From Gemmobacter megaterium (GTDB taxonomy: Bacteria; Pseudomonadota; Alphaproteobacteria; Rhodobacterales; Rhodobacteraceae): a stretch of 64,000 nt of DNA. This document shows, in pieces, positions 1,766 through 36,975 of the stretch. The DNA is taken from assembly GCF_900156815.1 (NCBI RefSeq), contig NZ_FTOT01000008.1, forward strand, positions 1 through 64,000, read 5' to 3'. How positions within the stretch are numbered: position 1 is the stretch's first letter; each line of letters begins with the position of its first letter. The notes under the pieces were generated by a model, which made no database searches, was not told the origin of the DNA, and saw nothing but the letters and a program-made list of their open reading frames with translations. A program made the translations under genes and the position numbers.

Positions 1766-1942
1766 AAATTCACCAAACTGGCGCAGTCAACAGGTCCGGA
1801 GAATATCGGCCTTGAGAGACCGCTTCCGGGCCTCCTGGCAGCAGGGGCAGTGCTGAGGCCCTCCCGCATAACCCTCGAAAACAACGAGAAAATCCGGCCG
1901 GAGCCGGATCGGGAGAACGCTTTCGCGAGGGCAAGTGGCGGA
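1766..1942 (+). repeat. 177-bp dispersed direct repeat, copy A
   Basis: It matches 36799-36975 in the same orientation and at the same length, without indels. The last 82 bp (1861-1942) differ from the other copy at a single base. The conserved core holds nested inverted repeats: ccctcg pairs with cgaggg across the core, and inside it atccggc/gccggat forms a 7-bp stem whose 4-nt loop carries the only difference. Short ORFs on its minus strand look incidental. The surrounding gap (1666-2072) shows nothing else that I can identify. Confidence 0.8.
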
Positions 1943-17062: not shown

Positions 17063-17142
17063 CTGCGCCTCCCATCCCCCCGGGCCGCAACAAGCGGCAT
17101 GTCCAGAGGGGCTCAGGACAAGGATATCAGATGGGGCAAGAT

Positions 17143-17161
17143 ATTGTAATAATGACAATAA
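17143..17161. promoter_or_regulatory. AT-rich inverted repeat in the methylase leader
   Basis: tattgt and acaata are 6-bp arms around 7 bases, in an unusually AT-rich patch of an otherwise GC-rich region. It lies in the 185-bp gap between the primase end and the methylase start and is a plausible operator or promoter for the methylase-terminase operon. Confidence 0.4.
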
Positions 17162-17246
17162 ATGCTGATTGACGACAGATGGAGACGATGCCGGACAGGA
17201 GTGAAGCCATCGCCATCGCGCATCCCTGTCGCACCGAAGCGCCCGA

Positions 17247-20200
17247 TCAACCCGGCTTCCATTCCGCAAGGGGGCCGACTGCGCCCTCGAGCAGCCGTCG
17301 CGGGTCGGACGCAATCGCCTCGATCCACCAGGCCCGCTGCCAGGAGCGGCCCCGGCCGGGACGGCGGTAGGCAGCCGATTTAAGCGACATTTCCCTATAA
17401 GGATTATCTATAGGGATTTGTCGCTTAAATCCTGCCCTCTCCAACGCCTTCTGCGCCTGCTTCTCGTCACTGAACAGCCCCGGATGCAGCACCGCCGCAT
17501 CGGCTGGGCTATCCACCGCCAGTCCCGCCAGCAGCATGCGCTGGATGATGTCCGGCATCACGGCTTCCCAGGCCAGCACGCGATCGTGGACCAGCGGCAG
17601 GGCAACGTCTGCCAGAACCTGGACCTCGAGCGGATTCGCCGCTGTCCGGTTCACCCCGCGACCCCGGCCGATGGCCTGGATCACTTCATCGTCGCAAACA
17701 GCCGAACGCATGAGTTCTGCGAGCGGGTCCTCGTGCTCGATCGCGACGATCGGGCGCCGGGATCCGTCCCGCATCAAGAGGCCCCGCCGGACCCGATGGT
17801 AGGCACCCATGGGCACATGTCCGAGGTAGGCGCTGGTGATGTGCCCAAGATCCTCGTTTCCGGGCAGCGGCCGGCCGATGACGATCAGCAGCGCCACGTC
17901 CTTGTAGGCATCCAGTCCGGCGATGGCCTTGAAGTGTCCCGTCTCGACACCTGGTATTCCGGCGAAGGCCGGTTCGATCTGCTTGTAGGTGACCACCAGT
18001 GTCCTGCCCGGCGCAACACGGGTCGCTTCCCAGCGGACATGGTCGACGCAGTCCCGGAGCCGGTTCCGCCGCCGCCGCGCCTCGTCCGGAGCGGCCTTCG
18101 GATCCTCCACCAGGGATGACTTGCCGAAGCTGCCCTGCACCGCGGTCAACCGCATCTGCGGCATGGACGCAGCGATCTCGATGACATCAAGTCCTGGCAG
18201 CACCGTCCCGGCAAGGCCAGGTCGCAGCGTGGCGTCGAGATGCAGGATCGGCAGTTGGGCGAGGTCCTGATCGATCCCCTGCAGGCGGGTCACCTCGATG
18301 GAAGCGGCGCCGGTCCCGGGATCAGGCGGCATGACCCGGACACGACCGTCCTGGTCTTCGGCCCCCTGCAGGCAGCCCTCCAGGGCATGGAACAGGGCCT
18401 CGCGCCGGACCGACCGATTGGCGTCCCAGCTGAGTTCCGCCGCGCGTCGGCGCGCCCCCTGCGGCAGGCCCGGGCGCAGGCCGGGATCAACGCGCAGCCG
18501 GATTTCCAGCGCGGCGGCGGTGGCGCATGCCGCGACAGTGAGACCTGCGTCGACAAGGTGCTGCCTCATCAGCGGGCCCGCCCCGTTGGCCCGCAAAGCG
18601 TCACTCGCCAGCGTCCGGAGGCGGAAGAGCTCGGTCCAGGCGGCTTCCTCCTCCTCGGGATCGTCCAGTCTCGGCGTGTCGACGGCCTCGGCCGCAGTGA
18701 TCTCCGCGAGGCCAATCCGGGTCCGACGGACGGCTCGCTCCCAGCAGCCCTCGTCGATCACGATCAGCGCTGCCTTGACCGCCGGCACCGACAATCCGGT
18801 GAAGAGGCTGTCATAGGCCGCCAGAACCACATCGGCCTCTTCGATCTCGCGCAGGTTCTCCTGCTTGGCACAGGCGTCGAAGGTGTGACAACGGGCGCCG
18901 CCGCGCCGCATGCAGGCATTGGGGAAGGCAGGAAGCCCGGACGCGATAGCCAGCCTCACCATGTCGAGATCCCGGCACATGGTCCGGCCAAGCCCGGGCA
19001 CCATCGCCTCGTAGCCGCGATGGACGGCAACGCGCAGATTGTCGCCCGCCCAGCCGAGCGCCGCCTCGTCCGCCAGCGCCAGGGATGGCACGAAGACGAG
19101 GATGCAATGCGGAAGGCCGGCCTCCTTCAGCCGCTGCTGCAATGCAAGAAGTTCCCGCCGTGAGACCGCCGACTTTCCGAGGCCGACGCTGGCGCGGAGG
19201 CCGGTCCGTGGACCCGGTTCCTCGCACCCCGAGGCGCTCCAGTCCTCGGCCGAACGGCAGAATGCTGCGATCGCTTCCGCGAGCTTTTCCCGGGCGTCGC
19301 CGACGGGCAGGCCGGGCTCGACCTCGACGGGCTCCGCGTCCGGAGATGCGCGTGGCGGCAGACGGCCAGCCGCTGCAAGGCCGAGCTTATCGCAGACCTT
19401 CGTCAGAGCATCATGGAGATCATAGGACGTCGAGCTGTCCTTCTTGCCCCGGGACAGATCGGTGGTTGCGCTGAACCGCTGCCAGGCGCGTTCGGCCAGG
19501 ATGTCGGGGGCCAGGGTTTGATCGGCATCGATCGCGTCGTGAACCGCGTGATAGGCGATCGTCGACAACCAGCCGTCACGCCCGTCGACGACAATCCCAT
19601 CGGCATCGCGGACCGGGCCGGTCGCAGGACCCGCGTTTCCACCTCGCCGTGCCCGACGTTGCTGCTCCCCGATCGGAGGGAGGAGCGCTGCAAGCTCGAA
19701 CAGGAGATCGCGGCAGATGGCCTCGTCGACGAGTGGCAGGTCGGCAAGCGGCAGATCGAGCGGCGTGTCGCCGGCTGGCCAGTAATACGGCTGCCCGGTG
19801 TCCGGGTGGATGCCAAAGGCCACGAACTGCTGGCCGAGGCCAAGGAATTCGAGCTTGCGTGCAGACAGTTTGGCAAAGGGCGTTTCGGTTCGCGCGAGAT
19901 AGAGCCGTTTCGGCCAGAGTCCGACGCGCATTGGCAAACTGCCAAGCCTGCCCTCGACGATCCGCCCCATCTGGTGCGCGGTGTCGGGGTCAAGGACATC
20001 TATATCGATGCCGACGAGCTGTCCGGTTCGCAATCCGACCCCGGACATGGGAAACGTCTCGATCCAGCGGGATACCTGCGCTTCGTCGATCCGGGCTGTC
20101 GTCCAGGCGTCCACAGCCGGGCGTTTTGTTCCTGCGAGGATCGGCAGCGGTTCAAAGCCATTGTCGAGAAGCCGGGCCGCCAGATCGCCATAGCCTTGAC

Positions 20201-20285
20201 CGGCCATGCCGAAGGGGCCGCCGCCGGCAGCCTGGCTGTCTTCCCTGTTGTCTTGCGCGGGTCCGGACTGGCGATCCCGCGCCAT
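17247..20285 (-). CDS. Prim-Pol primase fused to helicase-like region (1012 aa)
   Basis: 1012 aa. The N-terminal bifunctional primase-polymerase (AEP) domain has LPILAGTKRPAVDAWTTA, then the catalytic acidic pair in VGIDIDVLDPDTA and a following HPDTGQPYYWP region (about residues 35-190). A central ATPase-like segment has RASVGLGKSAVSRRELL (Walker A-like, about 365-385) and LIVIDEGCWERAV as a possible Walker B. A late motif DDEVIQAIGRGRGVNR resembles the arginine-finger box of SF2/SF3 helicases. The C-terminus (GRGRSWQRAWWIEAI) is a conserved tail in phage homologues. This is the replication protein of the element. Its 3' end contains a large 23-bp inverted repeat. Confidence 0.85.
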   Translation of the reverse strand: MARDRQSGPAQDNREDSQAAGGGPFGMAGQGYGDLAARLLDNGFEPLPILAGTKRPAVDAWTTARIDEAQVSRWIETFPMSGVGLRTGQLVGIDIDVLDPDTAHQMGRIVEGRLGSLPMRVGLWPKRLYLARTETPFAKLSARKLEFLGLGQQFVAFGIHPDTGQPYYWPAGDTPLDLPLADLPLVDEAICRDLLFELAALLPPIGEQQRRARRGGNAGPATGPVRDADGIVVDGRDGWLSTIAYHAVHDAIDADQTLAPDILAERAWQRFSATTDLSRGKKDSSTSYDLHDALTKVCDKLGLAAAGRLPPRASPDAEPVEVEPGLPVGDAREKLAEAIAAFCRSAEDWSASGCEEPGPRTGLRASVGLGKSAVSRRELLALQQRLKEAGLPHCILVFVPSLALADEAALGWAGDNLRVAVHRGYEAMVPGLGRTMCRDLDMVRLAIASGLPAFPNACMRRGGARCHTFDACAKQENLREIEEADVVLAAYDSLFTGLSVPAVKAALIVIDEGCWERAVRRTRIGLAEITAAEAVDTPRLDDPEEEEAAWTELFRLRTLASDALRANGAGPLMRQHLVDAGLTVAACATAAALEIRLRVDPGLRPGLPQGARRRAAELSWDANRSVRREALFHALEGCLQGAEDQDGRVRVMPPDPGTGAASIEVTRLQGIDQDLAQLPILHLDATLRPGLAGTVLPGLDVIEIAASMPQMRLTAVQGSFGKSSLVEDPKAAPDEARRRRNRLRDCVDHVRWEATRVAPGRTLVVTYKQIEPAFAGIPGVETGHFKAIAGLDAYKDVALLIVIGRPLPGNEDLGHITSAYLGHVPMGAYHRVRRGLLMRDGSRRPIVAIEHEDPLAELMRSAVCDDEVIQAIGRGRGVNRTAANPLEVQVLADVALPLVHDRVLAWEAVMPDIIQRMLLAGLAVDSPADAAVLHPGLFSDEKQAQKALERAGFKRQIPIDNPYREMSLKSAAYRRPGRGRSWQRAWWIEAIASDPRRLLEGAVGPLAEWKPG
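17377..17431. repeat. 23-bp inverted repeat inside the primase 3' end
   Basis: gatttaagcgaca-tt-tccctata and its complement are separated by 9 bases. Only the two central tt/aa bases of each arm fail to pair. It is AT-rich and sits within coding sequence (residues near IDNPYREMSLKSA). Such a symmetric site in a replication gene could be an origin, a terminator of replication or a recombination site. Confidence 0.8.
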
Positions 20286-22255: not shown

Positions 22256-24463
22256 TTACACGGCGATCTCCCAGGGCCCTTTCTGGCCGAGACTTCTCAA
22301 AAAGTTACCCTTCAGCTTGTCCCAGAGCGGCTGCTTGAAGATGTTCGGCAGGGACTGGCCTTCGGCAATGCCTCTGACAAGATCACCCGTCGTCATCGGC
22401 GTCGGGCCATTGTTATGGGCATCCACCAGCCGCTGAATGATGGCGATACGGTTTGCACCCTTGATGTCGATGGTGGCTTTTCCAGGTACGAAGAGGGTGG
22501 CCATATTCTCCCCGGAACGGGTGAGCCCGACCGCTTGTCCGCCACGGGCCAATATCCGGTGACGCCGAAACACGGACCGGAGCTTGTCTGCGACCAAGGC
22601 GATTTCGGACTGTCCCTTGTCGATCTGATCGGCAAGCGGCGTCAGGACGTTGGCTGCCAGACACGGCCCAGGTGCTTCGCCAGCCTGAAGGACCAGGCCG
22701 ATGCCGAGGTTGTGGCGCGCCCGAAGCTGCGTATCGACGTCCGACCGGACCTTCTCCCGGTCGAGACCTCGCGCGAGATAGACCGGCACATTGCCGCCAT
22801 CGACCGCGAGCGTTCCAAGATAGAGAAGCTGGTCAGTCAGCTTCTCTATGGCGGGCACATCCAGCGCCTGTTCAAGACGCGCCTTCAGATGTTGTGCGAC
22901 CCAGCCGTCCCGCACTCGATAGACCCGGTAGCGATCCGGTGTGCCGCCAGGGGCCAGCTGTCCTTCGGTGACCTGAAGATCGGCCACCTTATGATTTCCT
23001 GCTTCCTCATCTCCCTTTTCCACCCGGACAACAACCTCGGCTGCAACCAGGCCTATCTCGTCTTCATCGTCGATCAGGTCGTCGCCTACCCAACCGGCAG
23101 GGACAAGAAATCCGATTTCCATCAGAAGGCTGGGATCGACGCCGCGTTTAACCAGCCACTCGCCGGTGACCCTGTCTGCCCCTATGTCCCAGATGGCCAG
23201 CAACGCAGGCATGACCGCCATGCTCTCCGCATCGCCTGGCGCGCGACCCTCACGGAGGATATTCCAGTGTCGAAGCAGGCGATGCCCCAGAACCCGTTCG
23301 AACGGGTCGTCAATACTGAGAAGGCTGCTCGTGTTACGATCGGTAAGCGTGAAGTCGAGGGTTTGCACATCGTCTCGCTCCGCGCGGCGATACCGCACCG
23401 CAATCTCGATGAAGCGGATCGCGACCGCCCGCTCGAAAATCCTCGGGAGGCCCGGCTGGCTGTGGATGAGTTCGGAGATGTCCTGATCGATAGTGGTGGA
23501 AAGCGAGAGGCGGTTGGCGAGATTGCCGATGCTGATGTCAGCGCGGATCACTTGCGCACGGGTGATCACCACATCGTCGAGTTCCGGCAGTTCCAGATCG
23601 AGGGCCTGCATGAACCGCGAGATGTCGTAGGCCTGAAAGTCGACGGGCTGGTTGGAATAGGTCTGATCGAGGGCCGTTTCGATGAATCGCTCGGCGATGG
23701 TGTGCCTGAACTTTCGGTTGCCAGCGCGGACATGTACCCGTCCGGTTGATGGCGTGTAGACGATCATCGCCTCTCCGGGTGGCCGGAAATAGATACTTGA
23801 CCTATTGCCGTTGTCGTCGATCTCCCGGACGCTCGTGGGCGGATCGGGATGATACAGCAGGTACATCTCTGCCGCCGGTTCATCGCCGTCCTCGGGGATG
23901 TCGAACTTGTCGATGCTGTAGCCGTCGCCGCGATCGAGGCGCTTGTTGAGGTCGACAAGAAGCTCTTCGAGCAATGCGCTGCCGGCGTCCGGGCCTCCGT
24001 CGACCGAAGGCTCCGCCATGAAGGTCTGGTAGTGCTTGTCATAGCGCCGGTAGAGCCGCAGGTGCAGGCTGTTCTCCGCCGCTTCGAACAGCCCGTGTTC
24101 GTTCGCAAAGGCCCACAGGCTGCGCGCCAGCCTGTCCCGCTGGTTCAGAAGCTCCCTGGCGCGGTCGGGTTCGAGCCTGGTTGTGGCGAGACCTTGGAGG
24201 ACATACTCACCGCGGTCACTCGCAATTGTGACGATCCGGGCGGCTTCAGTTTCGAGCGGACCCAGCCGGTCCTTCTTTTCCTGCCGCAGCATGGTCCTGG
24301 CAAGCGACGGACCGTCCGGGTTGTCCACATCGAACTTGTAGGCAGAAAGCCAGTTCAACCTCTCGAAAGCTCTAGCCGCGAGAAATCCGGACAGCAGATT
24401 CGGCTCTGCATCATCGAATAGCCGGGAAAGACTGGGGCAGGTCTTCGTGGGCGCGCGAACCAT
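22256..24463 (-). CDS. Large hypothetical protein (735 aa)
   Basis: 735 aa. The start MVRAPTKTC at 24463 is chosen because gagg lies 6 bases upstream; earlier starts extend into a region without protein character. The sequence is acidic and soluble, with no signal peptide or membrane helix. The middle has strand-rich segments (YLLYHPDPPTSVREIDDNGNR and nearby), and the C-terminus looks like a winged-helix (AIIQRLVDAHNNGPTPMTTGDLVRGI). I do not recognise a family. It is divergent from the recombinase cassette at 24597 and may be a regulator, a defence gene or an element-borne enzyme of unknown type. Confidence 0.75.
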   Translation of the reverse strand: MVRAPTKTCPSLSRLFDDAEPNLLSGFLAARAFERLNWLSAYKFDVDNPDGPSLARTMLRQEKKDRLGPLETEAARIVTIASDRGEYVLQGLATTRLEPDRARELLNQRDRLARSLWAFANEHGLFEAAENSLHLRLYRRYDKHYQTFMAEPSVDGGPDAGSALLEELLVDLNKRLDRGDGYSIDKFDIPEDGDEPAAEMYLLYHPDPPTSVREIDDNGNRSSIYFRPPGEAMIVYTPSTGRVHVRAGNRKFRHTIAERFIETALDQTYSNQPVDFQAYDISRFMQALDLELPELDDVVITRAQVIRADISIGNLANRLSLSTTIDQDISELIHSQPGLPRIFERAVAIRFIEIAVRYRRAERDDVQTLDFTLTDRNTSSLLSIDDPFERVLGHRLLRHWNILREGRAPGDAESMAVMPALLAIWDIGADRVTGEWLVKRGVDPSLLMEIGFLVPAGWVGDDLIDDEDEIGLVAAEVVVRVEKGDEEAGNHKVADLQVTEGQLAPGGTPDRYRVYRVRDGWVAQHLKARLEQALDVPAIEKLTDQLLYLGTLAVDGGNVPVYLARGLDREKVRSDVDTQLRARHNLGIGLVLQAGEAPGPCLAANVLTPLADQIDKGQSEIALVADKLRSVFRRHRILARGGQAVGLTRSGENMATLFVPGKATIDIKGANRIAIIQRLVDAHNNGPTPMTTGDLVRGIAEGQSLPNIFKQPLWDKLKGNFLRSLGQKGPWEIAV

Positions 24464-24596
24464 GAGCCACCTCGCTGTCATTTCCGACGAGAGTAGGGAC
24501 ATCACCCGGTTTCGCCAGAGATTTTCTCCGGCCCCCTGTCCCATTGCCTCACCGGATTTGGCTTTTCCCTGGCAGATGCTCCCCGGATGCCCTGCC

Positions 24597-24800
24597 ATGA
24601 AGCACCCCAATCCCCTGTCGCCCTTCCTGATGACCTCCGCCGAGCGGCGGGCCGAGTTGTGCCGCATCCTGGCCCTCGGGCTGGTCCGGTTGCGCATGAG
24701 GAAGTCAAGCGAACTCTCTGACGACATGGGAGAAACTTCGCTACACCTTCCGCCCGCAAAGAGCGTTGGTCGGCATGCAAATCACCGGAGACCCGCATGA
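24597..24800 (+). CDS. Small conserved protein upstream of DUF2924 (67 aa)
   Basis: Starts MKHPNPLSPFLMTSAERRAEL; a second ATG 33 bp in is also possible. The core TSAERRAELCRILALGLVRLRMR...SSELSDDMGETSLHLP is a pattern I know from small proteins preceding DUF2924-recombinase cassettes in alphaproteobacterial elements. Its stop overlaps the DUF2924 start (ATGA), so the four genes of the cassette are translationally chained. Function unknown; it may be a DNA-binding partner of the recombinase. Confidence 0.7.
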   Translation: MKHPNPLSPFLMTSAERRAELCRILALGLVRLRMRKSSELSDDMGETSLHLPPAKSVGRHANHRRPA

Positions 24801-25252
24801 CGACGCATGATCCCATTCCCGCGCGCCTGGCCGCGCTGAAGACCACGCCGACGCCGGAACTGAAGCAACAGTGGCGCGATCTGTTCGACAGCGAACCGCC
24901 GCCCTTCAATCGCCGCTACCTTGAATCCCGGCTGGCCTATCGCATCCAGGAACTTGCCTACGGCGGCCTGAAGCCCGAGACGATTCGGCGCCTCGAACGG
25001 CTCGGCGAGGAACTGGACGGCGGCGACAGGAAGAAGCGCGGCATCCGAGCCGATCGCGACCGCCCCATCACCGGCACGCGCCTCCTGCGCGAATGGCAGG
25101 GCGTCGAACAGATCGTGACCGTCACCGCCGACGGCTTCGAATGGCAGGGTCGGCCGTACAAGTCGCTGTCCGCCATCGCACGGGCCATCACCGGCACGCG
25201 CTGGAACGGCTGGACCTTCTTCGGGCTCAAGAACCACAGGGGGCGGACATGA
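24797..25252 (+). CDS. DUF2924 protein
   Basis: 151 aa. It has the DUF2924 pattern LKQQWRDLFDSEPPPFNRRYLESRLAYRIQEL and the C-terminal segment YKSLSAIARAITGTRWNGWTFFGL. DUF2924 proteins are almost always found beside large serine recombinases in alphaproteobacterial phages and elements and are probably DNA-binding accessory factors. Start and stop overlap both neighbours by 4 bp. No enzymatic role is proposed. Confidence 0.9.
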   Translation: MTTHDPIPARLAALKTTPTPELKQQWRDLFDSEPPPFNRRYLESRLAYRIQELAYGGLKPETIRRLERLGEELDGGDRKKRGIRADRDRPITGTRLLREWQGVEQIVTVTADGFEWQGRPYKSLSAIARAITGTRWNGWTFFGLKNHRGRT

Positions 25253-26574
25253 CGAAGCCGCCGGATAAATCGAAGGTCGTCCGCAAGCTGCGATGTGCCG
25301 TCTACACCCGGAAGTCCTCCGAGGAAGGGCTGGAGCAGGAGTTCAACAGCCTCCACGCCCAACGTGAGGCCTGCGAGGCCTACATTGCCAGCCAGCGCTC
25401 CGAGGGCTGGGCGCTGGTCCGCGATCAGTATGACGACGGCGGCATCTCAGGCGGCACGCTGGAGCGGCCCGGCCTGAAGCGGCTGCTGGAGGATATCGAG
25501 GACGGGTTGGTCGACGTGGTGGTGGTCTACAAGATCGACCGCCTCAGCCGCTCGCTCGCCGACTTCGCCAAGCTGGTCGAGGTGTTCGACCGGAACGGCG
25601 TGACGTTCGTCTCGGTGACGCAGTCGTTCAACACGACGACCTCCATGGGACGGCTGACGCTGAACATCCTGCTGTCCTTCGCCCAGTTCGAGCGCGAGGT
25701 CACGGCCGAGCGCATCCGCGATAAGGTCGCGGCCTCTCGGCGCAAGGGCATGTGGATGGGCGGGGTACCGCCCTACGGCTATCGCGTCGAGAACCGGAAG
25801 CTGGTGGTGGAAGACGACCAGTCTGCGCACGTCCGCTGGATCTTCGGCCGCTTCCTCGAGATCGGGTCCTGCACGGAACTGGCGCGGGAGGTTGGCGTAC
25901 GCGGGATCCGGACGCCGCGCGGCAACCGGATCGACAAGAAATACATCTACCGGATGCTCAGCAACCGCGCCTACATCGGCGAGGCGGTCCACAAAGGCGA
26001 CAGCTATCCCGGCGAGCACGACGCGATCATCGACCGCGAGACTTGGGACCGCGTCCACGCCATCCTGCAGGAGAGCCCGCGCAAGCGTGCCGCGCGCACC
26101 CGAGCTGAGACGCCCGCGCTGCTGAAGGGGCTGCTGTTCGGGCCCGATGGCGCTGCGTTCTCGCCGACGCATACCCGCAAGGGCGACCGGCTCTACCGCT
26201 ATTATGTCAGCCAGACAGTGCTGAAGCATGGCGCTGGATCCTGCCCCATCGGCCGCGTGCCAGCGGGGGAGATAGAGGCCGCCGTCATCGATCAGCTCCG
26301 CGCCGTGTTCCGCCAGCCCGAAATCGTGGCGGGGACATGGAAGGCGGCGCGCGCCCACGCCGACGATATCAGCGAAGCCGACGCCCGGACGGCACTGCAG
26401 CAGCTTGATCCGCTGTGGGGCGAGCTGTTCCCCGCCGAGCAGGCGCGCATCGTGGAGTTGTTGGTCGAGCGCGTGGAGATCGGGACGGACGGGTTGAACG
26501 TCCGGCTCCGTGTGGATGGGCTCGGCGGCCTCGCACGCGAGATGCTGGCCGGAGACATGGGAGCGGCCGCATGA
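25249..26574 (+). CDS. Large serine recombinase (integrase-like)
   Basis: 441 aa from ATG 25249. The catalytic serine is S23 in YTRKSSEEGLEQEFNS, with IDRLSRS later in the resolvase fold. A recombinase domain follows (about 170-300). A zinc-ribbon region usual for large serine integrases is present only in vestigial form: GLLFGPDGAAFSPTHTRKGDRLYRYYV has lost the paired Cys, though a later Cys remains in GSCPIG. It is the third gene in an overlapping cassette and is likely to have moved the element or the defence genes beside it. Attachment sites are not identified. Confidence 0.92.
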   Translation: MTKPPDKSKVVRKLRCAVYTRKSSEEGLEQEFNSLHAQREACEAYIASQRSEGWALVRDQYDDGGISGGTLERPGLKRLLEDIEDGLVDVVVVYKIDRLSRSLADFAKLVEVFDRNGVTFVSVTQSFNTTTSMGRLTLNILLSFAQFEREVTAERIRDKVAASRRKGMWMGGVPPYGYRVENRKLVVEDDQSAHVRWIFGRFLEIGSCTELAREVGVRGIRTPRGNRIDKKYIYRMLSNRAYIGEAVHKGDSYPGEHDAIIDRETWDRVHAILQESPRKRAARTRAETPALLKGLLFGPDGAAFSPTHTRKGDRLYRYYVSQTVLKHGAGSCPIGRVPAGEIEAAVIDQLRAVFRQPEIVAGTWKAARAHADDISEADARTALQQLDPLWGELFPAEQARIVELLVERVEIGTDGLNVRLRVDGLGGLAREMLAGDMGAAA

Positions 26575-26954
26575 CCCGCGGCACTCTGATCCCCGAAACG
26601 GTGACGCTCCATGTCCCATTTCACATCGTGAAGCGCGGCGGGCGGAAGGAAATGCACCTGCCCGACCGCGTCCGGCCAGACCGCAAGGCGGACAACACGC
26701 TGGTCAAGGCGCTGGCCCGCGCCTTCCGCTGGAAGCGGATGCTCGAGTCGGGTGAGTTCGCTACCATTTCCGAACTGGCCGAGCGAGAGGGGATCGCACC
26801 CTCCTACATAACCCGCGTCCTGCGGCTGACGCTGCTTGCGCCGGATACCGTTGAGGCAATCCTCGACGGCACGCAGGGGCCAGAGATGACGCTGGCGCGG
26901 GTGCTGGAGCCGTTTCCCTTGCAGTGGAGCTTGCTGGTCGGTCATTTCCGCTGA
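26571..26954 (+). CDS. ParB/HTH-like protein at the end of the recombinase cassette
   Basis: 127 aa from ATG 26571, overlapping the recombinase stop by 4 bp. The segment LHVPFHIVKRGGRKEMHLPD followed by TLVKALARAFRWKRMLESGEFATISELAEREGIAPSYITRVLRLTLLAPD resembles ParB-like HTH proteins common after DUF2924-recombinase genes. It is expected to be a DNA-binding directionality or regulatory factor. An untranslated gap of about 260 bp separates it from the defence operon. Confidence 0.8.
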   Translation: MTRGTLIPETVTLHVPFHIVKRGGRKEMHLPDRVRPDRKADNTLVKALARAFRWKRMLESGEFATISELAEREGIAPSYITRVLRLTLLAPDTVEAILDGTQGPEMTLARVLEPFPLQWSLLVGHFR

Positions 26955-26960
26955 GAACCT

Positions 26961-27179
26961 CTAAGCAGACCCGTCCACCACTACAAATTGAAGGGTTGGT
27001 TGATGGCCTCCCATCAGCAGCGGCAATGACTGCCGGTCAAGGTTTGCGAAGCCGCCGGGCACATCTGCCTCCCATGGCCGTGGCCTAGGGTCGAGGCTCT
27101 CGCCCGCCTCAACCCAGTTGAGCAACGTGCTCATCTGGATGAACAGCAGGGGATTGATGATTATGGGCTTATCCGCCAC
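26961..27179 (-). CDS. Possible small protein divergent from the defence operon
   Basis: 72 aa frame beginning MADKPIIINPLLFIQMSTLLNW. It is convergent with the recombinase cassette and starts 35 bp from the defence operon start, so it could share a divergent promoter with it. There is no recognised domain and no strong ribosome site. It may be a fragment of a lost gene. Confidence 0.3.
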   Translation of the reverse strand: MADKPIIINPLLFIQMSTLLNWVEAGESLDPRPRPWEADVPGGFANLDRQSLPLLMGGHQPTLQFVVVDGSA

Positions 27180-27214
27180 CCTGTAAGCATGATGGCAGGG
27201 TTACTGGGGGCCGT

Positions 27215-28681
27215 GTGAAGTATCAAAATAATCCACCAGACGCCTCTGCGCTGATGACGTCGGCGCGGAGCTTTGGGAACTACGACTTGTCGAGTGCTCT
27301 TGCCGATCTCTTGGACAACAGCATAAAGGCAAAAGCACGTAGTATCGAAATTAAATGCATCCGGAAGGATGACGGGCCCGAGGTCAGGATTCTGGATGAT
27401 GGGTCCGGAATGTCGGCGAACGAGCTACATCGGGCTATGCGACCCGCCAGCACCAATCCCGACGATGAACGGGCTCGCGATGACCTCGGCCGGTTCGGCT
27501 GGGGCATGAAGTCGGCATCGCTCTCGCAGTGCCGGCTCCTGACCGTCGTCACCCGACACGATGGAGTTCTGTCTGGCGCATCTTGGGATCTTGATGATCT
27601 CGCCGACTGGAAAATGGGAGTCCTCGAGCCAGAGGAAATAAAGGCGTTAGCCGATCAACGGCTGCTTGAGCGCGACGGGACGGAGGTTATCTGGTGCAAG
27701 TGTGATCGTCTTTCTGAGTTCGGCCAGGTCGGCGGCAAAGGCTTCAACGACATCGTCGCACACGCAAAGGCGCAGCTGTCTCTCATCTTCCACCGTTATC
27801 TGGGCGGCGAGGAAGGTCTTCGGAAGCTCAAGGTCAATTTTAATGGGGACGCGCTAAAACCGGCAGACCCCTTCTTCCGCCACCATGACGCAACGCAGGC
27901 CCAGCCAAAGGAAACGCTTACCCTCGATGGTCAGCCCATCGAGGTGCAGGCCTTCATCCTCCCGCACTATTCGAAGATAACTGCGGGCGAGCACGACCGG
28001 CTGGGCGCTGAGGAAGGCTTCGTTCGCAATCAAGGGTTCTATGTATATAGACAACACCGACTAATCATACATGGAACATGGTTTCGGCTGGTGAAGCACG
28101 GCGAACTGTCGCAACTTGTCCGGATCGCGATTAACATCCCCAACTCGCTCGATGCCATGTGGAAGATCACCTTAGACAAGGCGGACGCACAGCTTCCGTC
28201 CGGGCTGAAAAGCCGTTTGAAGGACATCGTAGACGGCCTCAAGAGAAAATCAGGAAAGGTGTTCCAATCCCGCGGCGGTCGAGTCCGGAATGAAGCTGGG
28301 AAGACGTCGGTCTGGGCAAAATATGTAAGGAACGGCGAGGTCCGATATTATCTCAATCGCGAGCATCCACTGATCGCCGGAATGCTTGATGAAGATGACA
28401 AAGACAGAGCCAAGGCGTTTGCTGCAGCGCTCGGCATCATCGAGGACTGCTTCCCTGTTGTCAGCATTGGCGAAGACTATTCTTCACGCCCGGAAATGAT
28501 GAATCAGAGCGTAGTGGATCGAAGCACGTTTATCGAAAAGCTCGATGCAGCTCTTCCTTCGCTACTTTTGCATGTGGGGGGCAATATGAAAACACTTCAC
28601 GAGATCCTCGCGTCTACCGAGCCGTGGTCCAATCACGCCGATATCGTGCTGACACACCTTAAGGAAAAAGGGTGGAACTGA
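27215..28681 (+). CDS. MORC/GHKL-type ATPase of the defence operon
   Basis: 488 aa, GTG start. The GHKL (Bergerat) fold is explicit: N-box LADLLDNSIKA with N35, G1 ILDDGSGMS (60-67) and G2 GRFGWGMKSAS (92-102), followed by an S5-like domain (WKITLDKADAQLP). This is the MORC/MutL-like class predicted to drive restriction-modification-linked complexes in bacteria. The C-terminal half is charged and probably mediates partner contacts. The stop abuts the next gene's ATG. It is the first gene of a four-gene operon and is expected to couple ATP binding to recruitment of the helicase and nuclease partners. The role is inferred from family and context. Confidence 0.85.
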   Translation: MKYQNNPPDASALMTSARSFGNYDLSSALADLLDNSIKAKARSIEIKCIRKDDGPEVRILDDGSGMSANELHRAMRPASTNPDDERARDDLGRFGWGMKSASLSQCRLLTVVTRHDGVLSGASWDLDDLADWKMGVLEPEEIKALADQRLLERDGTEVIWCKCDRLSEFGQVGGKGFNDIVAHAKAQLSLIFHRYLGGEEGLRKLKVNFNGDALKPADPFFRHHDATQAQPKETLTLDGQPIEVQAFILPHYSKITAGEHDRLGAEEGFVRNQGFYVYRQHRLIIHGTWFRLVKHGELSQLVRIAINIPNSLDAMWKITLDKADAQLPSGLKSRLKDIVDGLKRKSGKVFQSRGGRVRNEAGKTSVWAKYVRNGEVRYYLNREHPLIAGMLDEDDKDRAKAFAAALGIIEDCFPVVSIGEDYSSRPEMMNQSVVDRSTFIEKLDAALPSLLLHVGGNMKTLHEILASTEPWSNHADIVLTHLKEKGWN

Positions 28682-31372
28682 ATGTTTGACAGCGAACTTG
28701 CGTACTTTCGTTCAATGATCACCCGAGACTATGGTGAGGACATTGCTCAAGGAAACGGCCTACCTGAAGGTGCGATCAGTAAAATCGTCCGGTGCGGCCC
28801 CTTCCAGCACCTCGGTGAGCCGGCAATCAATGCAATCATCCGCGAGCTAGAATCGAGCTTCACGGTAACCCAGAAGCGCGGAGCAGTCATTACAAAGGAC
28901 CATCGGCCTTGGCTAGCGGCAAAGCGGCCGCAGATTGACTTCTATTACTGGAATCGGCTCCGTAAATATTATCTTGAGACGGGAACTCTTCCGTCGCACG
29001 TGCTTGCCACGCTTGACTCCGATACAGACGAGATTCTCGACCAGTGCGGTAACCCGAGAGACGAGAATTACGGCGCTGTTCGCGGCATGGTCATGGGCAA
29101 TGTCCAGTCGGGCAAGACCACTAATTATTCGGCACTGATCTGCAAAGCTGCGGACGCAGGCTACCGAGTCATCATCCTGCTTGCCGGGATTACCAATTCG
29201 CTGCGTTCCCAGACGCAGGAACGGCTCGATGAAACCTTCATTGGCAAGGTCTCGATGTTCGGCGCGGTCGCCCAGCAATCGTTGCCGATCCAGAATTACG
29301 CAGCGACGCGGCGGATCCCCTCCTACGGCACGACCCGGGTGGCCGATTTTTCGAGTGGCAAGGACGGCATCTATTTCGGCCTGTCCGGTCATCAGGAGCC
29401 GATGATCTTCATCACCAAGAAGAACAAAGGCATCCTTGAACGTCTCGCTCTCTGGATCGAGAAGCAGGGGGAGACTGGCGGCTATGACCTGCCGCTTCTG
29501 TTAATCGACGACGAAGCCGACAATGCGTCCATAAATACAGCCAGTGATCCTAAGCGCACTACTGCTATCAACGGTGTCATCAGGCAGATCCTGTCACGTT
29601 TTCCGCGCTCGTCGTATGTCGGCTATACCGCTACACCGTTCGCCAACATTTTCATCGACCCGGAAACGACGGAAGAGATGGAGACGGACGACCTTTTTCC
29701 AGGCAATTTCATCAAGGCGCTCGATCCGCCCACCAACTATGCCGGCTCACGCCGGATCTTCCGGGAAGGCGGTGACCTGCGTGAAGGCATGGTCCGCATC
29801 ATTGACGATTATCGTCTGCTACTGCCACTCAAGCACAAGAGCGGTGACACTGTTGCCGACATCCCCGACAGTCTGCGCCACGCGATCCGCGTGTTCTGCA
29901 TCACGCGGGCCATCAGGGTACTCCAAGGCAAGGGCAAAGCTCATTGCTCGATGATGATCAACGTCAGCCGATTCAATGCCATCCAGGACCAGATTCTGGG
30001 TCAGGTTTACGAATACCTTGCCGAGATCAAGGACGCGATCGCGGTCCACGCATCGCTGCCGCCCGACGAGATCAGCGATGATGTCATGGACGATCTCGAA
30101 GCGAGCTTCACCAAGGAGTTTGATGATAGCGGGCTCGACTGGCATGGGCTGCTTGGGGTTCTCAACGAGGGCGTACAGTCCATAGAGGTCCGCACCGTCA
30201 ATATGCGGGGCGGCAAGCTCGACTATTCACTACACAAGTTTGACGGCCTTCATGTCATCGCCATCGGCGGATTGGCGCTGTCACGCGGGCTGACACTCGA
30301 AGGCCTCACGGTTTCTTATCTCCTGCGCAATGCGACTGCGAGCGACACGCTGATGCAGATGGCGCGCTGGTTCGGCTACCGCACGGGTTATGAGGAATAT
30401 TGTCGCCTCTATCTGCCTCAGATGTCCTTCGATCATTACGAATTTGTCGACGAGGCAACTGAAGAACTTAGGAGCGAGATCAAGCGCATGCAGGCCGCGC
30501 GCCGCACTCCGCGCGACTTCGGTCTCAAAGTCCGGCAAAGCCCGCTCGCCATCCGGGTAACCGCGGCAAACAAGATGCGCACGGCTGAGAAGCTCAAAAT
30601 CGCACAGGATTATTCCGCGCGTCACATCGAGGGCTTCGCACTCCCCAATGATCCGGTCATCGGTAATAATCAGCGCAATGCAGCCGACAAATTCCTCTCC
30701 GCGCTCGGAGACCCTACTGAGAAGGGCAAGGGTTTCATTCGCTGGTCTGCTAGTGGCCGCGACGTGCTCAAACTCCTTCGCGAATTCCGGTTTGTGGATC
30801 ATCCCGATCTATCGGTAATTTCCGACACATCCCTCTTTGAGGACTATGTTCAGGACCGCGTCACTGACGAACTGGCTGAATGGGATGTGGTGCTTCCCAT
30901 GCGTCAGTCGGGCGACTCCGTTCAGTTCGCCGGTCAGGACATCAATCTGAGGTCCCGCGACCAAGGAACGGTCCAGCGGGGTACCTATCGTGTGTACGGC
31001 AGCAAGAACCGCGTCGCCGACCCGGGGGACGCGCAGATCGGCCTGTCAGACGCACAGAAGGTAGCGGCGGAAGCAGCCTACCAAGCCGAGATTTACAAGA
31101 AGGAACGTGCCGCGTGCTCGGTACGCGAGCGGCCGATGATGCTCGTGCATGTTTTCGGTGCAAAACTGCGCGACGACCGGGTCGATTGCGACGACGAGCT
31201 CAAGCTAGACACGCCCATCGTCACGCTTTCCTTCTGCATGCCTGAGACCGGGAAACCTGCGAAGGAGAGAACCTACCAGGTGAACGCTGTCTATCGCCAG
31301 CAACTCGAACTTTATGTCGCCGAAGAAGACGATGATTCCCAAGCGATGATGGAGGCTCAGGATGCTGAATGA
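28682..31372 (+). CDS. Z1-domain SF2 ATPase of the defence operon
   Basis: 896 aa. The ATPase core has Walker A GNVQSGKT (139-146), motif II IDDEAD (275-280) and TATPFAN at 316-322. The Z1 domain is in the second half, with AIGGLALSRGLTLEGLTVSYLLRN and MQMARWFGYR. Such proteins are predicted translocases or helicases of MORC-linked restriction systems. The first codon follows the ATPase stop with no gap and the 3' end overlaps the nuclease gene by 11 bp. No membrane segments. DNA-unwinding ability is inferred. Confidence 0.9.
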   Translation: MFDSELAYFRSMITRDYGEDIAQGNGLPEGAISKIVRCGPFQHLGEPAINAIIRELESSFTVTQKRGAVITKDHRPWLAAKRPQIDFYYWNRLRKYYLETGTLPSHVLATLDSDTDEILDQCGNPRDENYGAVRGMVMGNVQSGKTTNYSALICKAADAGYRVIILLAGITNSLRSQTQERLDETFIGKVSMFGAVAQQSLPIQNYAATRRIPSYGTTRVADFSSGKDGIYFGLSGHQEPMIFITKKNKGILERLALWIEKQGETGGYDLPLLLIDDEADNASINTASDPKRTTAINGVIRQILSRFPRSSYVGYTATPFANIFIDPETTEEMETDDLFPGNFIKALDPPTNYAGSRRIFREGGDLREGMVRIIDDYRLLLPLKHKSGDTVADIPDSLRHAIRVFCITRAIRVLQGKGKAHCSMMINVSRFNAIQDQILGQVYEYLAEIKDAIAVHASLPPDEISDDVMDDLEASFTKEFDDSGLDWHGLLGVLNEGVQSIEVRTVNMRGGKLDYSLHKFDGLHVIAIGGLALSRGLTLEGLTVSYLLRNATASDTLMQMARWFGYRTGYEEYCRLYLPQMSFDHYEFVDEATEELRSEIKRMQAARRTPRDFGLKVRQSPLAIRVTAANKMRTAEKLKIAQDYSARHIEGFALPNDPVIGNNQRNAADKFLSALGDPTEKGKGFIRWSASGRDVLKLLREFRFVDHPDLSVISDTSLFEDYVQDRVTDELAEWDVVLPMRQSGDSVQFAGQDINLRSRDQGTVQRGTYRVYGSKNRVADPGDAQIGLSDAQKVAAEAAYQAEIYKKERAACSVRERPMMLVHVFGAKLRDDRVDCDDELKLDTPIVTLSFCMPETGKPAKERTYQVNAVYRQQLELYVAEEDDDSQAMMEAQDAE

Positions 31373-32345
31373 ATGGGAAGCGATTATCCCGCCATATGAC
31401 CCGGGGTCCTACAACGTCCGACTTGCCGACAGCAGCCATCCGCTCGATTTCAGGATTGGCCGTGACTATCGCGGACGTTTTGTCTTCCAACTTGATGCAG
31501 AGTGTGCGGAGCCCGGCGCGCTCGACCTGCCGAAGATGTCAGCGATGACCTGCGAAGTCGAGCCTGCAGGTGATGGGCGTTCGAGATTTGTCCTGACCCT
31601 CAGCAACGCTGCGGACTTCCGGAATTTCGCCCTTATGTGCAAAAGCCTCATGCTGGCGACTGACAAGTTCACTCCGTCACAGGCTAGAGAAGGGCTGCTG
31701 CAAGCCGTCGAGGAAGTTCACCGTTGGCAGGAGATGCTGCGCCGAAGGGCCGACCGCCTGCTGTCAAAAACCGAGAGGATTGGCCTGGTCGGCGAATTGC
31801 TGTTTCTGCGAGACGTTCTCAGCGACCGGCTTGGCTGGAATGCCGCCATCCGATGCTGGAACGGCCCCGGCGGTCATGAGCAGGATTTTGTGGTTGCCGG
31901 CAGCATTTTTGAGGTGAAGACGCAGGTGGTGACTGCCGATCGCCGGATCCGAATTTCTTCCGAAGACCAGCTTGATCCGGTTCAGGGACGGATCCTGCTC
32001 TGCAATCAGGGCATTGCGCCGCTGCCTTCCGTCGACCCGGCGGCTCGGACCCTCAACCTTCTGGTGTCAGAGATCCGTGACGCAATGGCTCAGGCTGGCT
32101 CGGGCGCCCCGGAACTACTCGATATTGCTCTTCTGGAGGCGGGCTACGAGGAGCGGCAGGACTATGACGAGGAGAGTTGGGTATTAGTGGACCGCACCTA
32201 TTATGAGGTGTGCGGAACTTTTCCGCGTATTGAGCGCAGCGATCTACGGCCCGGTGTCGACATGGTCAAGTACAGTATCCGCGTTAGTGACTGTGTTCCC
32301 TTTACCGTCAGCGATGATGAAGTGTTCGGGGGAATCATTCAATGA
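31362..32345 (+). CDS. PD-(D/E)XK nuclease-fold protein (DUF4420)
   Basis: 327 aa. The nuclease core is GLVGELLFLRDVL (E145) followed by GGHEQDFVVAGSIFEVKTQ, giving D175 and the E184-x-K186 pair of the PD-(D/E)XK fold. This is the DUF4420 family that accompanies Z1/MORC proteins. It would supply DNA cleavage for the defence complex. The start overlaps the Z1 gene and the stop overlaps the AIPR start by 4 bp. All predicted catalytic residues are in place. Confidence 0.88.
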   Translation: MLNEWEAIIPPYDPGSYNVRLADSSHPLDFRIGRDYRGRFVFQLDAECAEPGALDLPKMSAMTCEVEPAGDGRSRFVLTLSNAADFRNFALMCKSLMLATDKFTPSQAREGLLQAVEEVHRWQEMLRRRADRLLSKTERIGLVGELLFLRDVLSDRLGWNAAIRCWNGPGGHEQDFVVAGSIFEVKTQVVTADRRIRISSEDQLDPVQGRILLCNQGIAPLPSVDPAARTLNLLVSEIRDAMAQAGSGAPELLDIALLEAGYEERQDYDEESWVLVDRTYYEVCGTFPRIERSDLRPGVDMVKYSIRVSDCVPFTVSDDEVFGGIIQ

Positions 32346-34417
32346 GCGAGTTGCAAGAAGCATTCGAAGAGCTAAGAGAAGATATCCTTTTAGAGGCAGA
32401 GGCGCGGGGCGTCTTCCAGCAGGAGGCATTTTTTGAACTCTATGCCGCCGCTGCGTCCGACAATGGCGACACCATTGATCTGGAGTACGCCCACAGTCGT
32501 CAGGACGGTGGACGCCGACCATACCAGATAGACGGCCATGGGTTTGATGACGATCGTGGAACGCTTTATCTTGCCGTCTGCGATTACCGGGACGGGACGG
32601 ACTTGGAACCTCTCCAGAATGATCGTCTAACCTCAGCACTTAAGAGGGTTACCAATTTCTTTGAAAACGCCTGTTCATCGGCATTCATCAACTCCCTTGA
32701 GGAAACGAGTCCAGCGTTTTCAGCAGCGTATTCCATCTATTCGGCACGTGACCTCATCAAGAGACTTCGCATTATCCTTTTTTCCAACGCGCGCCTAGCA
32801 ACCAAAAGGCCGCCGCAGCTGGGCGAAGAGGTCGGCGGACTGCCGGTCGTCTATAGCGTGCTCGACGCCACTCGCTACTTCGACATCCAAAAAAGTTTCA
32901 GCAGGCCTGAGCCTATCGAGGTCGATGTTTCAACTATCGCTGGTGGGCCTATCGCCTGCCTGAAGGCATCGACGGAAGCCGAGGAGCATCAATCCTATCT
33001 TCTTGCAATTCCGGGATCAGTGCTTGCGGAAGTTTACGGCCTCTACGGAGCGCGACTACTCGAACAGAATGTCCGGACTTATCTTCAGGCGAGGACCAAG
33101 GTGAACAAGGGCATTCTGGAAACCATCAAGAAGACGCCGGAGATGTTTTTCGCCTACAACAACGGCCTCACCGCGACTGCATCGGCGGTTGACCTAGAGA
33201 CACTCGAAGACGGCCAGTTGGGAATTGCGGCCATTCACAACCTCCAGATTGTGAATGGCGGACAGACGACAGCGTCGATCCTGTACGCCAAGGATGTTGG
33301 CAAGTCGTCGCTTGAGCGGGTCCACGTGCAGATGAAGCTATCGGTGGTTTCCCCTGCTGTAATTGAGCAGGTCGTGCCGAAGATTTCACGGTTCGCGAAC
33401 ACTCAGAACCGGATCTCGGAGGCCGACTTCTTCTCCAGCCATCCCTTCCATCTGCAAATGGAGCGTTACTCGCGCACTCTCACCGCACCGCCGCAAAACG
33501 GAGCGATGACGGGCGACAAGTGGTTTTACGAACGAGCCCGCGGCCAGTACCGTGATGGCACTGCATATGCATCAGCAGCAGGAAAGAAAAAATATCAGCT
33601 GGAGTACCCCAAGGAGAAGCTCATCGAGAAGACGGACCTTGCGAAATACATACTAAGTTTTGAACGTAAGCCTTACATCGTCTCACGGGGTGCCCAGAAG
33701 GCCTTCGTGGCGTTTGCCGACGAGACTGCGAAAGCTTGGAAGTCCGCTCCCACCCAGTTCAACGAAACCTGGTATCGAAATGCCTGCGCAATGGCGCTGA
33801 TTTTCCGCTGGACAGACAAACACGTGGCCAGCTCTGACTGGTACAAGGATGACCGGGGATACAAATCTCAGACGGTAGCCTATACACTTTCCTGGATCGC
33901 CGAACAGATTGACCAGCAGGGGAAGGTAAATCTGAACTGGGGGCAAGTCTGGAACACACAGTCAGTGCCGGACGAGCTCCAAGACCTGATCGTCTCTCTT
34001 GCCCCACAAATAGCGGCCGCCATACGACGGACGCCCGCGAACGTCCGGAACGTAGGAGAATACTGCAAGTTTGAACTGTGTTGGCAGAATATAAAGGCAG
34101 CAGAATTCAACGTGCCAGTTCTGCCTGATCATCTGATGCTCGATGCAGATGAGGTGCACCGAGAGAAAAAGGAGGCGAAGTCGACCGCGATGATCGATCA
34201 CGAGATCGACTTCGATGTGCTCCTTCACACTCTCATTCCCAAGGCCGAGATCATTCGCCGAGTTGCTGAACAACGTAAATTCCTGTCGCCGAAGGCCGAC
34301 CGAGCCCTTCAGAAGCTTGGGTCAGGTAATTTCAATCTGGCCCGGCCGGACAAGAATTCGATCAAGCTTCTTGTTAAGCGAATGGCGGAGGAAGGAATGC
34401 CTGTAGAAGAGATGTAG
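32342..34417 (+). CDS. AIPR-family protein of the defence operon
   Basis: 691 aa of the AIPR family (PF10592; the name refers to abortive-infection phage resistance). Signatures are a long N-terminal region with FFAYNNGLTATASAV, then NLQIVNGGQTTASILYA (about residue 300-315), and PKISRFANTQNRISEADFFSSHPF about 40 residues later. The family is linked to phage resistance, and AIPR proteins commonly occur in modification-linked operons with Z1 and DUF4420 proteins. It ends the operon; the convergent methyltransferase gene ends about 95 bp beyond. Its mechanism is unknown. Confidence 0.88.
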   Translation: MSELQEAFEELREDILLEAEARGVFQQEAFFELYAAAASDNGDTIDLEYAHSRQDGGRRPYQIDGHGFDDDRGTLYLAVCDYRDGTDLEPLQNDRLTSALKRVTNFFENACSSAFINSLEETSPAFSAAYSIYSARDLIKRLRIILFSNARLATKRPPQLGEEVGGLPVVYSVLDATRYFDIQKSFSRPEPIEVDVSTIAGGPIACLKASTEAEEHQSYLLAIPGSVLAEVYGLYGARLLEQNVRTYLQARTKVNKGILETIKKTPEMFFAYNNGLTATASAVDLETLEDGQLGIAAIHNLQIVNGGQTTASILYAKDVGKSSLERVHVQMKLSVVSPAVIEQVVPKISRFANTQNRISEADFFSSHPFHLQMERYSRTLTAPPQNGAMTGDKWFYERARGQYRDGTAYASAAGKKKYQLEYPKEKLIEKTDLAKYILSFERKPYIVSRGAQKAFVAFADETAKAWKSAPTQFNETWYRNACAMALIFRWTDKHVASSDWYKDDRGYKSQTVAYTLSWIAEQIDQQGKVNLNWGQVWNTQSVPDELQDLIVSLAPQIAAAIRRTPANVRNVGEYCKFELCWQNIKAAEFNVPVLPDHLMLDADEVHREKKEAKSTAMIDHEIDFDVLLHTLIPKAEIIRRVAEQRKFLSPKADRALQKLGSGNFNLARPDKNSIKLLVKRMAEEGMPVEEM

Positions 34418-34512
34418 TGAAACCGGTGCCGCGTTTTTATTACATTACCGGCCCAAGGTCTTCTGCGATGGACCGGCCTCGCTATTGGCCACCAAACTAC
34501 ATCAGCGAGAGC

Positions 34513-36108
34513 TCAAGGTACCTGCGACGGGGCATGGCGGCGCTCGGCTTTACGTTCTCTTCCGATCGACTGCCCGACCGCCAGCACGCGATGCAGCAGC
34601 TGTGCAATCTGCATTGCTAGAAACGGCGGCACGGCGTTTCCGACCTGGACATATTGTTGTGTACGATTTCCCAGAAACAGATAATCATCTGGGAAGGTCT
34701 GCAGCCTCGCTGCCTCGCGGACAGTCAGGCTGCGGCACTGCATCGGATCGGGATGGATGAAGTAGTGGCCATCCTTGGAGATATGGCTCGTGACCGTGGT
34801 CGAAGCTTGGTCGGCCAGCTGGACCCGAAAACGGTCATTGAAGACGCCGCTGTGCCAGTTGCGGTGTTCTGGACTGAGTGCCAAGGGAAAATCGGCAGCC
34901 TTCGGGCTGTAGCCACGGACGGTGCCGAAAACGGCTGCGAACAGGTAGCGGCCGAGATCTGAAGCCATGTGCCCACGCGTCTCGTGCTGGGCAATCGCGC
35001 GCATGTTCGGCCGCTCGAGCCAACGCAGCAGTTCATCGTTCGAAGTGCCATAGCCGTCCTGCAACCATGACGCGACCCGAAGGCTCGGTGATTCGTCACT
35101 CAGTCCCCTTGAAACGCCAAGGAACGCTTCACGGAGCGCGCTGTCGTCCTTCCCCTTGCAGATGCCAGCGAGCAACTTCGCGGCGTCGGTGACCTCCCTT
35201 CGCCATGCAGCCACGTCATCGAGGCCGCGGCTGATGCCGCTGCGCAGGGCGGGCAACGTTCCAATTGCATCGCCGACTGTCCGCGCCATACCCAACACGG
35301 CGACCTCGGCATCAGCGGCCTTGCGCGCGAGGTCGGACCGGATCCCGACAATGATCACCCGATGGCGCCGCTGCGGAACTCCGAATGCCTCGGCGCGCAC
35401 GATGAAGTCCGCAGGCTGTGTCGCCTCTTGCAGGCTGGCCTTGCCATTCTGGATCCGGACGGCGCGCAGTTCGTATTGATGGCCGTGGCCAGTGCCGAGT
35501 GAGGACAGGTCCTCCATGAGCATCTCGAAGACAAGGCGGCTCTCGACCGTCGAGGACAGCATACCCTTGACGTTCTCCATCACGAAGGCGGCTGGGCGAA
35601 GCCTGTCGAGCACCCGGATGTACTCGCGAAACAGGTAATGCCGCGCATCCTCCTCGGGGACATAGCCGACCTTGCCCTTGGAGCGGGCGCGCCCCACCAG
35701 GGAATAGGCCTGACAGGGCGGGCCGCCGATCAGGATTGTGTCGTCGTATTTGTCCTTCAGCTCTACAATCGCACCATCGATGGCGCTTGCCGCATGCTCA
35801 GTGCCAAGCTCGAGCGCGCGGGCTTCGTCGATGGCATGCCGCCACGCCTCAGTGTCGACGGCTGACCAGTCCGGTTCGGAGGTAAGTCCTGCGTGGAAAT
35901 CGATGAACTGCTTGGGCAATGCATCATGACGCGCACGATAGTCGCGCAGGAACGCCCGTAGCGTAAGGGTCCGATGAGCGGATGCTTCCTTTTCGACCGA
36001 AATGCCGATCCGGAACGGCGCATGGCCGTCCTCCACGAGGGAAGCGAAGCCCTCGCCAAGTCCGCCGGGACCGGCAAACAGATCGACAATTCCGAAAGTT
36101 GAAGGCAA
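34513..36108 (-). CDS. C5-cytosine DNA methyltransferase of the defence island
   Basis: 531 aa with a TTG start at 36108, chosen because aggag lies 6 bases upstream; the longer frame to 36240 has no similarity and overlaps the Vsr gene. Motif I FAGPGGLGEGF is followed by motif IV GGPPCQAYS with catalytic C132, ENVKGML, QRRHRVIIVG, LTVREAARLQTFPDDY and QVGNAVPP. A large target-recognition region lies between motifs VIII and IX. It modifies cytosine and presumably protects host DNA from the adjacent nuclease complex. Converges with the AIPR operon and diverges from Vsr. Confidence 0.93.
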   Translation of the reverse strand: MPSTFGIVDLFAGPGGLGEGFASLVEDGHAPFRIGISVEKEASAHRTLTLRAFLRDYRARHDALPKQFIDFHAGLTSEPDWSAVDTEAWRHAIDEARALELGTEHAASAIDGAIVELKDKYDDTILIGGPPCQAYSLVGRARSKGKVGYVPEEDARHYLFREYIRVLDRLRPAAFVMENVKGMLSSTVESRLVFEMLMEDLSSLGTGHGHQYELRAVRIQNGKASLQEATQPADFIVRAEAFGVPQRRHRVIIVGIRSDLARKAADAEVAVLGMARTVGDAIGTLPALRSGISRGLDDVAAWRREVTDAAKLLAGICKGKDDSALREAFLGVSRGLSDESPSLRVASWLQDGYGTSNDELLRWLERPNMRAIAQHETRGHMASDLGRYLFAAVFGTVRGYSPKAADFPLALSPEHRNWHSGVFNDRFRVQLADQASTTVTSHISKDGHYFIHPDPMQCRSLTVREAARLQTFPDDYLFLGNRTQQYVQVGNAVPPFLAMQIAQLLHRVLAVGQSIGRERKAERRHAPSQVP

Positions 36109-36175
36109 ATCAGGCTCCTGACGAGTTTCATTCAGCCGGTGTATACCAGGTTCAGGGACGAAGACCAGGACGGAT

Positions 36176-36673
36176 ATGACCGATATCGTGGACCAGCAAA
36201 CCCGTTCCCGGATGATGTCGGGAATACGGGGAAAGAACACGAAGCCCGAGCTGGCTCTCAGGCGGGCATTGCACGCGCGCGGCTTTCGCTTCCGGCTTCA
36301 TTCCGGAAAGGTTCACGGGCGGCCGGACCTCGTTCTTCCGAAGCATCGCGCCGTGGTCTTCGTACACGGCTGCTTCTGGCATCGCCACGAGGGCTGTCGC
36401 TACACGACCAGCCCATCGACCCGGCCGGAGTTCTGGCAGACAAAGTTCGAGGCAAACATCGCTCGGGACAGCGCCGTGCGTACGACACTTCTGGAAGACG
36501 GATGGCGCGTAGCGACGATTTGGGAGTGCGCCCTGCGGAAGCCTACACAGATAAGCGCCACAACCGATCTTCTCGCAGCCTGGCTGCCCATGGCGCCTGT
36601 CACCATTGAGATCGGTGAGAGCGACATACTGCATGGCGGGATCATCGCCACCGGTGGGGATCGCGGCGGCTGA
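36176..36673 (+). CDS. vsr: Vsr (very short patch repair) endonuclease
   Basis: 165 aa. Residues include RSRMMSGIRGKNTKPE, GRPDLVLPKHRAVVFVHGCFWHRHEGC and RPEFWQTKFEANIARD, all family hallmarks, with the catalytic Asp in GRPDLVL and zinc-type Cys/His ligands in GCFWHRHEGC. Vsr nicks G:T mismatches produced by deamination of 5-methylcytosine, so it pairs logically with the divergent cytosine methyltransferase (67 bp apart). The C-terminal tail is slightly extended. It may also act in restriction with the MORC complex; that is inference. Confidence 0.93.
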   Translation: MTDIVDQQTRSRMMSGIRGKNTKPELALRRALHARGFRFRLHSGKVHGRPDLVLPKHRAVVFVHGCFWHRHEGCRYTTSPSTRPEFWQTKFEANIARDSAVRTTLLEDGWRVATIWECALRKPTQISATTDLLAAWLPMAPVTIEIGESDILHGGIIATGGDRGG

Positions 36674-36798
36674 ACGGTCAACTCGCGCTGCGCCGACCTA
36701 GATAATGTTCGATTTCAGTTCCTTTTCGAAGCGCGACCCTGAAATCGAAGTGTTCAGAAGGCAGGAGATTAACTGACGCTATTTCAATGGCTTCTGAT

Positions 36799-36975
36799 AA
36801 ATTCACCAAAGCGGCGCAGTCATCAGCTCCGGAGAATATCGGCCCTTAGAGACCGCTTTCGTCCCTCGCGGCACACGGACCGGTTAACAGCCTCTCCCGC
36901 ATAACCCTCGAAAACAACGAGAAAATCCGGCCGCAGCCGGATCGGGAGAACGCTTTCGCGAGGGCAAGTGGCGGA
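36799..36975 (+). repeat. 177-bp dispersed direct repeat, copy B
   Basis: Same orientation and length as 1766-1942; the last 82 bp (36894-36975) carry one mismatch in the loop of a 7-bp hairpin. It lies between the defence island and the first prophage gene. Sequences diverge beyond both ends. The GTG of the next gene (36968) falls within its last bases. The short gap 36674-36798 contains nothing else recognised. Confidence 0.8.

Follow-up and report, generated by a model that had tools for sequence, protein, structure and literature searches.

Do the six genes at positions 27,215–36,673 of a 64,000-nucleotide stretch of Gemmobacter megaterium (contig NZ_FTOT01000008.1; hereafter the window) form one anti-phage system, and which of its parts would choose the DNA to be attacked? 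An earlier note, made from the sequence alone, proposed that a MORC-type ATPase, a Z1 ATPase, a DUF4420 nuclease and an AIPR protein, together with a C5-cytosine DNA methyltransferase (MTase) and a Vsr endonuclease, are a MORC-linked restriction system. We find that the locus is real, recurrent and recently transferred. It is a member of a widespread, little-tested kind of anti-phage machine whose function is predicted; the kind was predicted earlier and has been partly validated. In it a constant four-gene core of ATPases and nuclease moves together with a DNA-marking enzyme and repair partner that can be exchanged, and the new element is the pattern of this MTase–Vsr cassette across the family.

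Layout and recurrence of the locus

Positions and domain matches confirmed the gene order and domains that the earlier note had proposed (Table 1). The four core genes are contiguous, with junctions of 0, −11 and −4 bp, and the MTase meets them head-on, 95 bp separating its stop from that of the AIPR gene. The longest open reading frame (ORF) for the MTase, of 575 amino acids (aa), reaches 36240 and overlaps Vsr; we infer that translation starts instead at an in-frame TTG at 36108, after AGGAG, which gives 531 aa and leaves a 67-bp gap to the divergent Vsr gene.

Table 1 Features of the locus and its surroundings in the window
Feature	Position	Strand	Remarks
177-bp direct repeat, left copy	1766..1942	+	86% identical to right copy; non-coding
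Mobility cassette: DUF2924 protein, large serine recombinase, ParB/HTH-like protein	24797..26954	+	directly upstream of system
MORC-type GHKL ATPase (MzaB-like)	27215..28681	+	488 aa, GTG start
Z1 ATPase gene (MzaC position)	28682..31372	+
DUF4420 PD-(D/E)XK nuclease (MzaD-like)	31362..32345	+	327 aa; DUF4420 1.8e-56
AIPR-family protein (MzaE-like)	32342..34417	+	691 aa; AIPR 2.4e-94, AIPR_N 1.5e-30
C5-cytosine DNA methyltransferase (MTase)	34513..36108	-	~531 aa, inferred TTG start; DNA_methylase 1.3e-42
Vsr mismatch endonuclease	36176..36673	+	165 aa; Vsr 2.3e-29; TIGR00632 over cut-off
177-bp direct repeat, right copy	36799..36975	+

The catalytic motifs are intact, as the earlier note held, and their key residues are also conserved across 75 loci: N35, D61, G63 and K99 of the MORC ATPase at 0.97, and E145, D175, E184 and K186 of DUF4420 invariantly. 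The MTase carries GPPCQ, ENV and QRRHR. A C5 MTase and Vsr recur beside the core: of 114 distinct loci, from many phyla, 108 have the MTase, which AIPR-less relatives have too, and Vsr accompanies 87 of the 103 AIPR-bearing loci (the window and one duplicate counted). The MTase frequency bears only indirectly on whether the host must mark its DNA to survive the nuclease. The earlier note's reading of the locus is partly supported; a core that acts by abortive infection is a low-rated rival, weighed below.

Family assignment and relation to known systems

The ATPase matches HATPase_c_3 (7.8e-32) and, in PADLOC, MzaB (3.2e-66). A family profile built from 35 members ranked the structures of human MORC2, MORC4 and MORC3 ahead of MutL, so the MORC label is right. 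Prokaryotic MORC proteins were defined by GHKL motifs and the S5 motif GhXhhpXXRhl (Iyer 2008), which here reads GFYVYRQHRLI. In the part of that study available to us, a third MORC operon type comprises MORC, a superfamily II (SFII) helicase with DThhQXuRhFG, a restriction-endonuclease-fold (RE-fold) nuclease with E-D-ExK, DCM, Vsr and AIPR; that part, in which the type is known by comparative genomics only, gives no clear difference from our locus, whose helicase has DTLMQMARWFG and whose DUF4420 protein has E145-D175-E184xK186.

Scores against the NCBIfam equivalogs fell below cut-off for MzaB (280 of 850 bits), MzaC (480 of 1500), MzaD (96 of 420) and MzaE (318 of 1050), yet these matches are significant as those of relatives. 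MzaA, the ankyrin–sigma70 factor upstream of MzaB, had no match among ten flanking ORFs or in any window frame of at least 60 aa. A search of the open-licence literature, with subscription papers outside its scope, found no experimental study of the MzaA-less form. BREX and DISARM also combine MTase-marked self with a multi-subunit machine; the likeness is one of logic only, their core families being different. CglI and NgoAVII have three genes, with a PLD+B3 nuclease and without MORC, DUF4420 or AIPR. Among the closest known systems is also the Type II system of Miller et al. 2022 (PMC9523054); the word Vsr is absent from the main text of that paper, which does link its Type I system to unnamed DNA repair endonucleases.

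Recent transfer of the locus

Positions 24596–36975, mobility cassette included, share 97.4% identity with Shinella sp. PSBB067. The homology stops at the last base of the right copy of the 177-bp repeat, a sequence at which defence modules may be bounded by recombination. The cassette resembles a staphylococcal cassette chromosome (SCC); the best NCBIfam matches of its recombinase are CcrB, XisF and CcrA, all far below cut-off. The repeat occurs twice in the genome, in four plasmid records besides Shinella and in 4 of 385 genomes of the class, its own included, and has no Rfam match as a known RNA. On two alphaproteobacterial plasmids similar copies adjoin defence genes: that of Haematobacter (L128) has a stretch containing BREX on one side and reverse transcriptase and presumably Gabija-like genes on the other, and that of Zymomonas (L129) directly follows a type I restriction–modification operon near Drt3ab. 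A copy in Peteryoungia (L127) has no such defence neighbours.

What selects the target

It is possible, though less likely than our main reading below, that the MTase is the specificity subunit as well as the antidote, finding unmodified sites and recruiting to them a core that is itself blind to sequence. The MTase of BREX works in this way; PglX of that system has been called both methyltransferase and specificity factor. Swapping the MTase–Vsr cassette would then re-target the system. However, a docking MTase might be expected to co-evolve more with the core than the values of 0.33–0.42 found, and an alignable target-recognition region is common to 55 of 75 MTases, all at least 38% identical to that of the window in the catalytic region, so many may share one site that the core itself could read.

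Several observations weigh against our main, moderately likely reading, a restriction system whose core is paired with an exchangeable MTase–Vsr cassette. GC content is 0.55–0.60 over 28–36 kb against 0.62–0.70 over 2–28 kb, but low values (0.50–0.59) persist to about 44 kb, so the low-GC stretch is not specific to the system. Conservation of the MTase is also compatible with a sole antidote role, and among the Pfam matches of the core no domain devoted to recognition stood out, no dedicated search having been made. In partial Mantel tests DUF4420 tracked the MTase (1 of 300 permutations) and Vsr (0 of 300); with the MTase held fixed the DUF4420–Vsr association remained at 0 of 300, and with Vsr fixed that with the MTase stood at 22 of 300. 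This signal would suit a sequence-reading nuclease. The tests that did not bear such a nuclease out, given next, were built on the MTase, so the DUF4420–Vsr correlation is outside their reach and remains unexplained.

Ordinary restriction, in which DUF4420, alone or in complex, recognizes the site that the MTase also reads, we consider unlikely. Given the other core genes, the partial correlation of DUF4420 was 0.25 with the MTase and 0.35 with Vsr (0.27 given the MTase too), and sliding windows weakly pointed to DUF4420, some MORC windows being similar for Vsr (up to 0.30). However, matched-identity pairs showed no consistent difference in five bins, and permutation of class labels, assigned by hand from the target-recognition alignment, gave 154 of 1000, or 968 of 1000 once ten loci were omitted as Firmicutes (among them L101, an uncultured bacterium only assumed to belong there). 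The AlphaFold2 (AF2) model of DUF4420 (predicted local distance difference test, pLDDT, 95.0) had no significant match in the PDB, the top rows being YbjN (E 0.06) and, lower, type III chaperones. As neither the pairs nor the permutation confirmed DUF4420 as specificity reader, we do not claim it.

That the core works by abortive infection with AIPR as its agent, the MTase and Vsr being independent neighbours, seems to us quite improbable. The family name fits, and co-evolution among the core genes for the most part leaves the MTase out, but the latter's presence in so many distinct loci, and in relatives without AIPR, speaks against independence. AIPR could itself be a PD-(D/E)XK nuclease: in its AF2 model (pLDDT 88.4) the N-domain is alpha-beta-beta-beta-alpha-beta, and 1y88 and McrC, both of the PD-(D/E)XK fold, headed the Foldseek matches, but with E values of only 0.27–0.29. 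Of 56 sequences, 53 conserve D64 and 44 conserve D81, while lysine is outside the five commonest residues at position 83, and profile comparison with DUF4420 gave no match.

Very improbable is Vsr as a working nuclease of the defence machine, with the MORC protein activating it in the way that MutL does. For all its frequency at AIPR-bearing loci, Vsr is also a neighbour, at no more than 3.5 kb, of 47 of 139 C5 MTases away from DUF4420, among the matches listed, and some relatives that yielded no MORC have it too (L033, L035, L040, L144). MutL binds and stimulates Vsr in Neisseria (PMC6116569), so a MORC–Vsr contact is possible. The background comprised 150 MTase rows among the matches listed, two split rows merged, and 87 Vsr rows over cut-off, four weaker ones dropped. 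In the class sample Vsr was within 7.5 kb of 11 of 16 DUF4420 places, and within 10 kb of 5 of 9 MTases near DUF4420 among the matches listed, a smaller excess. Enriched at most about two-fold, Vsr is a general companion of C5 MTases, which fits repair of deaminated 5-methylcytosine; this background rate weakened it as a system-specific effector.

Other features of the window

At 15812–20285 a minus-strand N6/N4 DNA methylase adjoins a 1012-aa Prim-Pol protein, which suggests that the region bounded by the 177-bp repeats holds a further replication module, of phage or plasmid type. A minus-strand ORF of 823 aa (22256–24727) had no Pfam, NCBIfam or PADLOC match, and one of 4883 aa occupies 47570–62221, also on the minus strand.

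Significance

The family spans, by record titles, Pseudomonadota, Bacillota, Planctomycetota, Chloroflexota, Nitrospirota and others. Relatives of its ATPase silence genes in eukaryotes; here a MORC ATPase is paired with a methyl mark. If the MTase cassette does set the target, the family would amount to a restriction machine that can be re-programmed, and would offer a simple setting for asking how a MORC ATPase acts on DNA.
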